Assembly (NCBI RefSeq): GCF_009936215.1
Contig: NZ_AP019552.1
Location: 1 to 43,703 of the forward strand
Length of the DNA stretch: 43,703 nt
Origin: Athalassotoga saccharophila
GTDB lineage: Bacteria; Thermotogota; Thermotogae; Mesoaciditogales; Mesoaciditogaceae
Direction: 5' to 3'
In this document: positions 11,108 to 19,969 of the stretch, in pieces
How positions within the stretch are numbered: the first letter of the stretch is position 1
Layout of the letters: every line of letters starts with the position of its first letter
Translations under genes and position numbers: made by a program
Notes under the pieces: generated by a model
Database searches by the model: none
Seen by the model: only the letters and a program-made list of their open reading frames with translations
Told to the model about the DNA's origin: nothing

Positions 11108-13894
11108 ATGATAAAGGAGAGGATTGGAATAAGCGAAAGTAACCTCGAAAAAGAGATTTTATCAAAGCCATCATTACTTTCTGATTCTCAAAAAGAAGCT
11201 GTGTTATCTGACAGTAGATACGTTAAAATTACGGCTGGTGCTGGTGCTGGGAAAACGGAAACTCTTACACGTAAGATTATCTACTTACTTCTAGTAAAGA
11301 ATATTGACCCAGTTTCTATTGTTGCCTTCACCTTCACGGAAAAAGCTGCTGAAAATATTAAAAATAGAATCTATCATCGTATTTTAGAATACGGTCGGGA
11401 AGATATTGCTAAACACTTAGGTAAAATGTATGTTGGTACGATTCATGGTTTCTGTCTGCGTGTTCTTCAAGAAAAGTTCAGCAATAATGGTTATGGAAAT
11501 TACAATGTTTTCGATGCTAATCAAGAAATGGCTTTCATTTTTAAAATAGGGCGAAAAATATTAGGAATGTCTAATCATTATATTGATAGTTGCTTTAAAT
11601 TTATCGAGAATGTCAACGTTGTTTACGGAGAGTACATAGATAAAGAAACACTAAGAGAAAACGCTGTTGATTTCTACAAAAAACTCATTAAGTATGAGGA
11701 ATTGCTTAATGAAAACAAATACTTCACCTTTGGAAGAATTATATATGAGTGCGTTCAGAATTTGGAGAAATATCCTGAAAAGCTGGCAGATGTGAAGTAT
11801 TTAATCGTTGATGAGTTTCAAGATATTGATAAAGCACAATTTAATTTGATAAGGCTTATTGGAAAAAATGCGTCAGTGTTTGTTGTTGGTGATCCACGTC
11901 AAAGCATTTACAAATGGAGAGGAGCCGACGAAGAGTTTTTCAATTCATTTGAAAAATATTTTAAGCATACAAAAAGTCTGGAAATAAATGGAAATAGAAG
12001 AAGTGGTTCTAAAATAGTTGAAGCGGCAAATGCTTTTGCAGATAGTTTTGAAGGTATAAATTTTCCTAATATGGAAGCCGTAAAAGATGAAACCGGAGAC
12101 GTGAAGATCTTAAGTTTTGATATGGAAGAAGATGAAGCCGAATGGATCGCTGCCCAAATAAAAGAATTAGTTGATAATCATGGATTCCGCTATTCTGACT
12201 TTGCCATTTTACTTAGAAGTGTAAAAAACTATGCTAAAGCATATATAGAAGCGTTGAAAAAACTTGAAATTCCATATATCATTGGCGGAAAAGTGGGTCT
12301 TTTCAGAAGGGATGATGCTTTAGCCGTTGGCATGCTAATAACTTGGTTGGATGGAAGTTCGTGGAAAATGTACAATAAAAAAATTGAAGGTGATAATTTA
12401 CTAAGAGAGGGTATTCAACACTGGAAAAATGCTGTAAGATTCGAATTGCCAAGTGATCTGGAAGAAAAACTGAGAAAATGGAAAAAAGATTTTCAAGATA
12501 AAAAGTTCAAAACATTCAAAGATATTTACTACGAACTGCTACTTGTGCTTGGTTATAAAAACTTAGATCCAAACAATAAACTCGATGTTGCAATATTGGC
12601 AAATCTTGGAAGAGTTAGCACAATAATACGGGATTTTGACATTACCAGAAGGCTTACGGATAAAAGAAATCCATCATGGCCAGCAGATTTACATGAGTTC
12701 GTGTGGTTTATTAGATCCTATGCCATAAATTCATATGAAGAACTTACACCAGATCAGTTTTCAGGTATTGATGTGGTTCAAGTAATAACGGTTCACCAGG
12801 CCAAAGGACTTGAATGGCCAGTTGTTTTTTTACCTTCTTTGGTAGATAAGCGTTTTCCGTCTGAACATGATATAGATGATGATAGATGGATGATCCCTGA
12901 AGAATTGTTCAACAGTGGTAAGTACAACGGTGGCATCGAAGACGAAAAAAGATTGTTTTATGTTGCAATGACAAGAGCAAAAAAAGCAGTTTTGTTTAGC
13001 TATTTTAAGACAAGAACTCCAAGAATAAATTCATCTAATCCGATTAAGGTGAGTAAGAGCAAATTTGTGGACATACTTTTAGAAAGAACTCAAATTCAAC
13101 TAACAAAATCCACCTACCTTGATTACACAATTGATAGAAACCAAGAAGACAATGAAGATGAAATTCATTCATACTCTGTAACAGAGTTGATAAACTATAT
13201 GCTCTGTCCTTACCATTATAGACTCAATAATTTGTGGGGATACATGCAAAGCATGAGCAGTCAGTTGTTAGGATATGGAGAAGCTTTGCACTATGTACTT
13301 CGTAGAACATCTGAATTGATGAATCAAGGCTATTCAGCTACTAGCGCTGTGAACACCGCGATGGATGATTTTTACTTGCCATTTGCTTCAGATAAGGTAT
13401 TTGATAACATCAAAGAAAATACCAAAAAGATTTTGAAAAATTTTGTTGTTGAATATCAAGAAGACATGAAAAAAATATCTGAAGTTGAAATGCGTGTAGA
13501 ACTTCCCCTCGAAAATTCTATAATAGTTGGAAGGGTGGATGTGATTCTTAAAGATGAAGATGCGCATTCATATGAAATCCGTGATTATAAGACTTCAGAT
13601 GAAATTATTTCAAAAGAAGATTATGAATTTCAAATCAGACTGTACACTCACGCATTACGTAATTTAGATTATAATGTTGAAAGTGGATCGATCGCGTTCC
13701 TAACAAAATCGGAAGTTAGCATAGTGGAAATAGATGAAAATAAAGTGGAAATGGAAAGAGCAAAAGCGGAAGAGATCGTAAGAAAAATAAAAAATTCCGA
13801 ATTTCCAATGGAGCCAAGAAAAAACTTTTGCGAGAGGTGTGAGTATAAAAAAATATGCAAGGGGGCGAAATTTGATGGCAGCCAATCAAACTGA
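11108..13894 (+). CDS. UvrD-type helicase fused to Cas4/AddB-like Fe-S nuclease
   Basis: A 928-residue helicase-nuclease. The helicase part shows a Q-motif SDSQKEAV, Walker A AGAGAGKTE (about residue 41), Walker B VDEFQD (about 233), motif III GDPRQSIYKWRGAD (about 260), motif V TVHQAKGLEW (about 560) and motif VI YVAMTRAKK (about 617). The C-terminal 230 residues are a PD-(D/E)XK nuclease of the RecB/AddB/Cas4 type, with GRVDVIL (about 807), DYKT (about 826) and QIRLYTHAL. Cysteines in MLCPYHYRL (about 699) and CERCEYKKIC near the end match the four-Cys Fe-S staple of AddB and Cas4. It is the first gene of a three-gene operon and overlaps the Mod-like gene. No ribosome binding site precedes ATG 11108; AAAGGAG lies just inside the gene, so the 5' end may have been altered when the operon was inserted. 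Confidence 0.88.
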   Translation: MIKERIGISESNLEKEILSKPSLLSDSQKEAVLSDSRYVKITAGAGAGKTETLTRKIIYLLLVKNIDPVSIVAFTFTEKAAENIKNRIYHRILEYGREDIAKHLGKMYVGTIHGFCLRVLQEKFSNNGYGNYNVFDANQEMAFIFKIGRKILGMSNHYIDSCFKFIENVNVVYGEYIDKETLRENAVDFYKKLIKYEELLNENKYFTFGRIIYECVQNLEKYPEKLADVKYLIVDEFQDIDKAQFNLIRLIGKNASVFVVGDPRQSIYKWRGADEEFFNSFEKYFKHTKSLEINGNRRSGSKIVEAANAFADSFEGINFPNMEAVKDETGDVKILSFDMEEDEAEWIAAQIKELVDNHGFRYSDFAILLRSVKNYAKAYIEALKKLEIPYIIGGKVGLFRRDDALAVGMLITWLDGSSWKMYNKKIEGDNLLREGIQHWKNAVRFELPSDLEEKLRKWKKDFQDKKFKTFKDIYYELLLVLGYKNLDPNNKLDVAILANLGRVSTIIRDFDITRRLTDKRNPSWPADLHEFVWFIRSYAINSYEELTPDQFSGIDVVQVITVHQAKGLEWPVVFLPSLVDKRFPSEHDIDDDRWMIPEELFNSGKYNGGIEDEKRLFYVAMTRAKKAVLFSYFKTRTPRINSSNPIKVSKSKFVDILLERTQIQLTKSTYLDYTIDRNQEDNEDEIHSYSVTELINYMLCPYHYRLNNLWGYMQSMSSQLLGYGEALHYVLRRTSELMNQGYSATSAVNTAMDDFYLPFASDKVFDNIKENTKKILKNFVVEYQEDMKKISEVEMRVELPLENSIIVGRVDVILKDEDAHSYEIRDYKTSDEIISKEDYEFQIRLYTHALRNLDYNVESGSIAFLTKSEVSIVEIDENKVEMERAKAEEIVRKIKNSEFPMEPRKNFCERCEYKKICKGAKFDGSQSN

Positions 13895-19800: not shown

Positions 19801-19969
19801 AAAAAATAAAGATTACAAAAACATATTCCTTGATTCATACATCATCTCAGTTTCTTCTTACGAACAAGTAAGAGGAATTTTTGAAGGTAAATCACGTAAA
19901 GAATTGGAAAAAAAACATATCTTATTTCAAGATGATCCCAAATATATTGAAAAAATCTTCACATATTAA
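16850..19969 (+). CDS. Type III Res-like DEAD/DEAH helicase with nuclease-like tail
   Basis: A 1039-residue superfamily 2 translocase resembling the Res subunit of type III restriction enzymes. Motifs seen are Walker A ATGSGKT (about residue 136), DEGH at the DEAD-box position (about 243), the SAT motif FEYSATF, and late motifs [22 protein letters not shown] (shown in part) and QLFGRGIRL. Near the C-terminus FFPDFILW (about 935) and IIFVEPHG (about 953) align with the PD-(D/E)XK endonuclease of Res, but the expected E-x-K reads E-P-H, so the catalytic Lys is missing or moved. It begins 5 bp after the Mod-like stop. Restriction or phage-triggered DNA processing is likely. Whether it cuts by itself or relies on the helicase-nuclease encoded first in the operon is open. 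Confidence 0.87.
   Translation: [1039 protein letters not shown]

Follow-up and report, generated by a model that had tools for sequence, protein, structure and literature searches.

The window, i.e. the whole 43,703-nt stretch of DNA from Athalassotoga saccharophila analyzed here (contig NZ_AP019552.1), carries an operon of three genes coding for a UvrD-like superfamily 1 (SF1) helicase with a fused, C-terminal iron-sulfur (Fe-S) nuclease (UvrD-Cas4), a long type III methyltransferase (Mod) and a long type III superfamily 2 (SF2) helicase (Res). This trio is a conserved, recurrently assembled unit, and for that reason the helicase-nuclease very probably works together with Mod and Res. What the analysis shows directly is which genes are present, that their catalytic motifs are intact, how tightly they are packed, that their order is conserved and that they were assembled repeatedly; as far as the sequences tell, the trio is a real, conserved operon with defence as its probable role. 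The reading that we somewhat favor is that of a type III-like restriction-modification operon on a plasmid, extended by a third component, in which restriction would be followed by degradation.

Recurrence of the trio and its assembly

Homologues of the helicase-nuclease were surveyed in plasmids, 390 sampled genomes and IMG/VR (the scan of genome contigs gave only one relative). Exactly the trio of the window was present on a 55-kb IMG/VR contig (L140), with 3-nt gaps between the genes and a tyrosine integrase nearby; its proteins share 43% (helicase-nuclease), 44% (Mod, main segment) and 46% (Res) identity with those of the window, a similar divergence of all three as expected if they travelled together. 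UvrD-Cas4 also accompanied a long Mod and a long Res in two Priestia plasmids. Indeed, all full-length relatives of the helicase-nuclease in the plasmid records examined adjoin a DNA methyltransferase: in plasmids of Enterococcus (two species), Nitrosomonas, Phaeobacter, Vibrio, Spirosoma and Tunicatimonas, UvrD-Cas4 precedes a short Mod and then a Res-like helicase that bears a TnsA-like domain at its C-terminus (in Spirosoma, two small genes lie between helicase and Mod). A third Mod/Res type was located beside UvrD-Cas4 at L125, L128, L191 and L272; the helicases nearest to that of the window in the 390-genome sample sit with this type (L125, L128; L272 in a further genome). The search of four small groups around the sampled genomes revealed two more window-type helicases in one group only (G394, G392; the G394 locus is L272, carrying Mod3 and Res3), the other three groups containing nothing beyond the loci already found. 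Among 103 genomes searched of the same phylum, no other gene matched the helicase-nuclease at E 1e-60; long Mods were present in several of them.

In IMG/VR, Mod and Res were encoded within 5 kb of 13 of the 23 distinct fused UvrD-Cas4 genes versus none of the 43 UvrD genes without the fusion that this search also returned (Fisher p 6e-8), and some DNA methyltransferase near 22/23 versus 2/43 (Fisher p 3e-14); these p-values are indicative only, as the loci counted share descent and independent events are therefore overstated. The sequence-only reading had left open a chance association of the three genes: this is ruled out by the exact trio of L140, by the IMG/VR counts and by the trees, with homologues adjoining Mod/Res pairs in many taxa.

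In the helicase-nuclease tree, the proteins of the window and L140 are sisters (100/100) in a clade with those of other Mod/Res, methyltransferase and Dcm loci, whereas the Priestia protein is nested in the clade of the TnsA-Res loci; a single helicase clade for window and Priestia was rejected (approximately unbiased test, p 0.0002). In the Res tree, which did not include L140, the window falls in a clade in which no other sampled locus has UvrD-Cas4; the Priestia Res groups with the SNF2-associated Res instead. Because window and Priestia belong to different clades of both trees, UvrD-Cas4 and long Mod/Res must have come together at least twice.

The three proteins and the plasmid that carries them

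A UvrD helicase with a C-terminal Fe-S PD-(D/E)XK nuclease, as recognized in the sequence-only reading, was confirmed: Pfam domains UvrD (PF00580), UvrD_C (PF13361), PDDEXK_1 (PF12705) and Cas_Cas4 (PF01930) are combined in a single protein, and the Fe-S ligands (C700, C908, C911, C917) as well as the nuclease residues (H728, D811, D826, K828) are invariant in ten aligned homologues. Its designation as AddA/AddB-like needs correction: the helicase is UvrD/PcrA-like, carries an AddB/Cas4-type nuclease and is no AddA orthologue. Orthology to AddAB was ruled out, since the cut-offs of the AddA, AddB and RecB models were not reached (no equivalog-level match to any of these models).

Mod contains the Pfam domain N6_N4_Mtase (PF01555) at residues 521-780 with the motifs IYIDPPF and DFFGGSGTT, motif IV preceding motif I. 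The long-Mod profile matched EcoP15I Mod, Mbo45V Mod and 6k0w Mod in the PDB, and the AlphaFold model of the window protein (modest confidence; mean predicted local distance difference test score, pLDDT, 65.5) had its best match in EcoP15I Mod (VIA-align with 4zcf_A: Z 24.1, root-mean-square deviation 4.7 Å, 383 residues aligned, reaching the C-terminus). According to profile and model, Mod has the EcoP15I-like architecture of a beta-class amino-methyltransferase. Its N-terminal extension, previously considered unusual, is a constant trait of a widespread long-Mod family: a region of about 490-500 residues is common to all 18 aligned long Mods, whose sources range from haloarchaea to plasmids of E. 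coli. No fold was assigned to this domain at the given model confidence, the structure matches covering mainly residues 494-919.

The Res-like helicase of the earlier reading was borne out by the ResIII domain (PF04851), by the invariant SF2 motifs ATGSGKT, DEGH, SAT and QLFGRG, and by structure: EcoP15I Res (4zcf_C) was second in the Foldseek search with the Res model (pLDDT 75.5; E 5e-6), and VIA-align gave Z 11.4 (370 residues), no better than for other SF2 motors, while the Res profile found no homologue among PDB chains by sequence. Res carries an SF2 helicase motor, and both Mod and Res match EcoP15I subunits in the structure-based search that had been suggested. The C-terminal PDF...(D/E)P(K/H)G of Res, with suitable predicted secondary structure, is consistent with a PD-(D/E)XK nuclease; this part had no Pfam match and no fold match, and lay outside the structure alignments obtained. 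Where most relatives have DPKG, the window Res has EPHG (His for Lys). This substitution does not mark dependence on UvrD-Cas4, as there was no correlation: L140, with the trio, has DPKG, whereas L033, L076 and L139, without a UvrD gene, have EPHG.

All three open reading frames (ORFs) are open (Table 1). The Mod ORF overlaps the helicase ORF by 56 nt (GTG 13839) or 20 nt (ATG 13875), and Res starts 5 nt past the Mod stop; three tightly packed, intact genes on one strand are thus present, as the sequence-only reading had stated. ATG 13875, with the 20-nt overlap, is probably the Mod start because a strong AAGGGGG precedes it and homologues begin there.

Table 1. Features of the operon and of its replicon (window positions).
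Feature	Position	Strand	Remarks
UvrD-like SF1 helicase with C-terminal Fe-S PD-(D/E)XK (Cas4/AddB-type) nuclease, 928 aa	11108..13894	+	nuclease domain about 13172-13861
Long type III Mod, beta-class N6_N4 methyltransferase, 1001 aa	13839/13875..16844	+	
Mod, conserved N-terminal region	about 13875-15310		
Mod, catalytic domain	about 15324-16253		
Long type III Res, SF2 helicase, 1039 aa	16850..19969	+	Pfam ResIII; PADLOC REase_III PDLC03654, E 1e-131
Res, C-terminal PD...(D/E)x(K/H) nuclease-like domain	about 19487-19849	+	invariant PDF...[DE]P[HK]G
Rep3 plasmid replication initiator of the replicon carrying the operon	1..1326	+	Pfam Rep3_N/Rep3_C
Six 21-nt iterons	43511..43668	+	direct repeat family D1; in a circular contig they would lie immediately upstream of rep
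Truncated lipoprotein gene	10897..11091	+	probable left edge of acquired cassette
IS630-type transposase fragment	20050..20757	+	right flank of operon; HTH_33 and partial DDE_3

The window is an entire contig of a three-contig, 2.04-Mb assembly and most likely represents a closed iteron plasmid, because the Rep3 initiator begins at base 1 and six 21-nt iterons stand at the far end; an exact terminal overlap proving circle closure was absent from the contig ends. The flanking of the operon by a lipoprotein stump (74% identity over residues 8-61 with the beginning of an 840-aa frame from a congeneric genome) and an IS630 fragment points to horizontal acquisition.

Further elements of this plasmid are a second UvrD-like helicase directly downstream of the Rep3 gene (1328-3136, 602 aa), in which no nuclease domain was found and which probably serves plasmid replication; a gene divergent from the operon (8770-10764, minus strand) for a protein of 664 aa that starts with a PLD (NgoFVII-like) nuclease domain and apparently also has a P-loop ATPase part, no family being recognized beyond the PLD domain; and a large imperfect inverted repeat in a gene-poor stretch (5183-6142; several arm pieces 91-96% complementary), possibly an element resembling a miniature inverted-repeat transposable element. 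A second, shorter type III Mod/Res with an 825-aa Mod is located on contig C3 of the same genome (L038 9191-15949), its Res gene being interrupted by a transposase gene.

Proposed action and rival explanations

According to the restrict-then-degrade reading, Mod as a beta-class DNA methyltransferase would mark its own site in resident DNA; in unmarked incoming DNA, Mod-Res would engage the site, and Res would hydrolyze ATP, move or slide, and cut via its C-terminal PD-(D/E)xK/H domain. UvrD-Cas4 would then load on the broken end, unwind 3' to 5' and cut up the strands by means of the Fe-S nuclease; in this way, the restricted DNA would be destroyed rather than religated or repaired, independent of host AddAB/RecBCD. 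Methylation, cutting, the order of action, the anti-phage function and the degradation step are what we infer here: the restriction half from family knowledge and the structural similarity to EcoP15I, the degradation half from the make-up of UvrD-type motor and AddB/Cas4-type nuclease and from their repeated association with Mod/Res. Type III restriction, as described, cuts DNA without degrading it. If a built-in helicase-nuclease does complete the destruction, the operons would explain how some cells escape phage repair of cut genomes or phage blockers of RecBCD/AddAB; since UvrD-Cas4 recurs with at least three Mod/Res types, laboratory strains allow a direct test of the prediction. That the three proteins form one obligate machine, a 'restrict-and-degrade' subtype assembled several times, in which Mod-Res recognizes unmarked DNA and hands it over to the Fe-S helicase-nuclease, is a more doubtful proposal; the repeated assembly would in this case be due to the third position of type III-like operons being a general slot for DNA motors (UvrD-Cas4, SNF2, AddAB-like).

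Several observations, besides the shared descent behind the IMG/VR counts, weigh against the restrict-then-degrade reading. UvrD-Cas4 was encoded at none of the 19 long Mod/Res loci in the 390 sampled genomes (a few of them cut by contig ends); Mod and Res therefore do not need it. UvrD-Cas4, in turn, also occurs with Dcm/Vsr (L127), RadC, SbcCD-like or no methyltransferase genes (one clade, separate from the others and chromosomal, adjoins SbcCD-like or different genes), and its activity is therefore not specific to type III systems. Seven of the 19 loci carry an SNF2 (DrmD-like) gene instead. With UvrD-Cas4 at none of these loci and SNF2 at seven, a third ATP-driven motor is best regarded as a recurrent but optional, exchangeable addition to the long Mod/Res family, and SNF2 with long Mod/Res as a separate three-gene system that is also found on Enterobacteriaceae plasmids. 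SNF2 accompanies long Mod/Res very often: it was seen there, in place of UvrD-Cas4, at L010, L012-L014, L083, L084, L087-L090 and L092, and in IMG/VR at L141, L143, L148-L153 and L160; the copy of the E. coli plasmid is DrmD-like (PADLOC E 2.5e-196).

The many long Mod/Res loci with other or no partners, and the position of the operon on a plasmid with insertion sequences, would agree with a helicase-nuclease that is a mere hitch-hiker with no functional tie to Mod/Res, as defence genes cluster on mobile elements; this is very improbable, given that the genes overlap and run in one direction, that their order is kept in many taxa, that all three proteins have diverged to a similar degree between window and L140, and that recruitment was repeated. 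Helicase-nucleases such as RecBCD/AddAB act in recombination, sister UvrD-Cas4 clades sit with RadC or SbcCD-like genes on chromosomes, and the plasmid has another UvrD-like helicase beside rep: UvrD-Cas4 might accordingly be a repair or safety helper for restriction breaks in host DNA or an aid to plasmid replication or maintenance. The clades comprising the window and trio proteins, however, mostly adjoin DNA methyltransferases and not repair genes, and we consider such a role quite unlikely.

The main cutting could also be done by UvrD-Cas4, with Res serving mostly as the motor that finds the site and all three proteins in one obligate complex that unwinds and degrades concomitantly, an idea proposed for the helicase-nuclease Bad. 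Besides the tight gene overlap and the EPHG of the window Res in place of the DPKG of most relatives, Bad itself would be in line with this, as it is related in kind, has a type III-like methyltransferase as its neighbor and has been suggested to belong to a new restriction enzyme (PMC7430649). Since the K/H difference is independent of helicase presence and related Mod/Res pairs occur without UvrD-Cas4, this explanation seems unlikely as well, and restriction by Mod-Res with subsequent degradation by UvrD-Cas4 is the reading retained here.

Other gene sets were encountered around both families. In the IMG/VR contig L275 (9995-16770), a window-related UvrD-Cas4 is followed by a 1057-aa protein of no recognized family and a 262-aa protein, without a recognized methyltransferase nearby; a different system is possible. 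In several genomes, long-family operons have small modules inserted between their Mod and Res genes (L080 7001-7716, L082 7064-8740, L077 6659-8190, L081 10174-10575, L033 6183-7943, L090 7147-8943); these might, mostly as a guess from sequence, resemble toxin-antitoxin pairs (MNT/HEPN-like, PIN plus HTH, AbiE-like) or DUF262-related genes. In one family of the same phylum (L035-L037, L040), an 850-aa Mod and a 990-aa Res are preceded by a recurrent set of a DEAD-like helicase (~450 aa; replaced by a 697-aa gene in L036), an AAA/SMC-like ATPase (~650 aa) and a 160-aa protein, possibly another multi-gene restriction system. Haloarchaeal plasmids (L009, L015, L051, L052) combine long Mod/Res and an AAA ATPase with a divergent three-gene set resembling a split AddAB (UvrD_C-like protein, PD-(D/E)XK nuclease, RecB-like helicase).

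Comparison with known systems

AbiRc of the lactococcal AbiR system (abortive infection, AbiRa/b/c) has an SF1/SF2 helicase domain; AbiR was not among the PADLOC matches listed for the proteins, the AbiR sequences themselves not having been compared, and Lactococcus was not among the organisms in the TnsA-Res plasmid search. PADLOC has no model that matches the trio as a whole; taken singly, the proteins obtained generic calls only (GajB/DRT-type helicase, type III methyltransferase, type III restriction endonuclease). Gabija was rejected, as the GajB matches span only generic UvrD regions and no OLD-family (GajA) gene was recognized in the operon or its immediate neighbors. DISARM was likewise rejected: there was no Drm match for the trio among the matches listed and no DrmA/DrmB-like gene in the immediate flanks (the neighboring PLD protein matches DrmC models only at E 0.001-0.008).

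The trio had been put forward as a possibly new defence system; in this respect the sequence-only reading has to be corrected, the association having been published in 2017 (Hudaiberdiev et al., PMC5704561) and a parallel idea for Bad in 2020 (PMC7430649). The former describes the UvrD-Cas4 fusion as being of single origin with two conserved contexts, type III Mod/Res (the commonest) and Dcm/Vsr, and proposes an ancillary defence role; both contexts were recovered in the present survey. A literature search and a text search, with subscription papers mostly outside their reach, revealed neither a named system for UvrD-Cas4 with Mod/Res, nor an experiment on it, nor another paper with the term "UvrD-Cas4" beyond PMC5704561. 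The operon of the window belongs to this already predicted, unnamed kind; the present survey adds a homologous cassette of exactly the same make-up, shows that the Mod extension runs through the whole family and that assembly occurred repeatedly and independently, and suggests an exchangeable motor slot.

The loci of Hudaiberdiev et al. (PMC5704561) share with the window the fusion of a UvrD-like SF1 helicase with a Cas4-like nuclease (pfam12705), together with Mod and Res; the study names no system and reports no experiment. Classical type III systems (EcoP15I/EcoP1I) agree in the fold of Mod and its catalytic domain up to and including the C-terminus (Z 24.1), SF2 motor of Res, mod-res order and a putative C-terminal nuclease motif in Res; in contrast, the window has the additional UvrD-Cas4 gene, the Mod N-terminal region of about 490 residues and a Res family without a PDB homologue by sequence. 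The SNF2(DrmD-like)-Mod-Res operons of E. coli/Klebsiella plasmids share the long Mod and Res families and a third ATP-driven DNA motor, but this motor is SNF2/DrmD-like with no nuclease domain found, and their Res belongs to another clade. AddAB, AdnAB and RecBCD likewise join a UvrD-type motor to an Fe-S or RecB-family nuclease, whereas the window protein is a single polypeptide with no partner helicase-nuclease subunit. Bad (Geobacillus, DNA2-like), proposed to form a new restriction enzyme with the adjacent type III-like methyltransferase (PMC7430649), has an Fe-S RecB-family nuclease and an SF1 motor as well; its nuclease, however, is N-terminal and its motor 5'-3', whereas in the window protein the UvrD-like motor (expected 3'-5') is N-terminal and the nuclease C-terminal.

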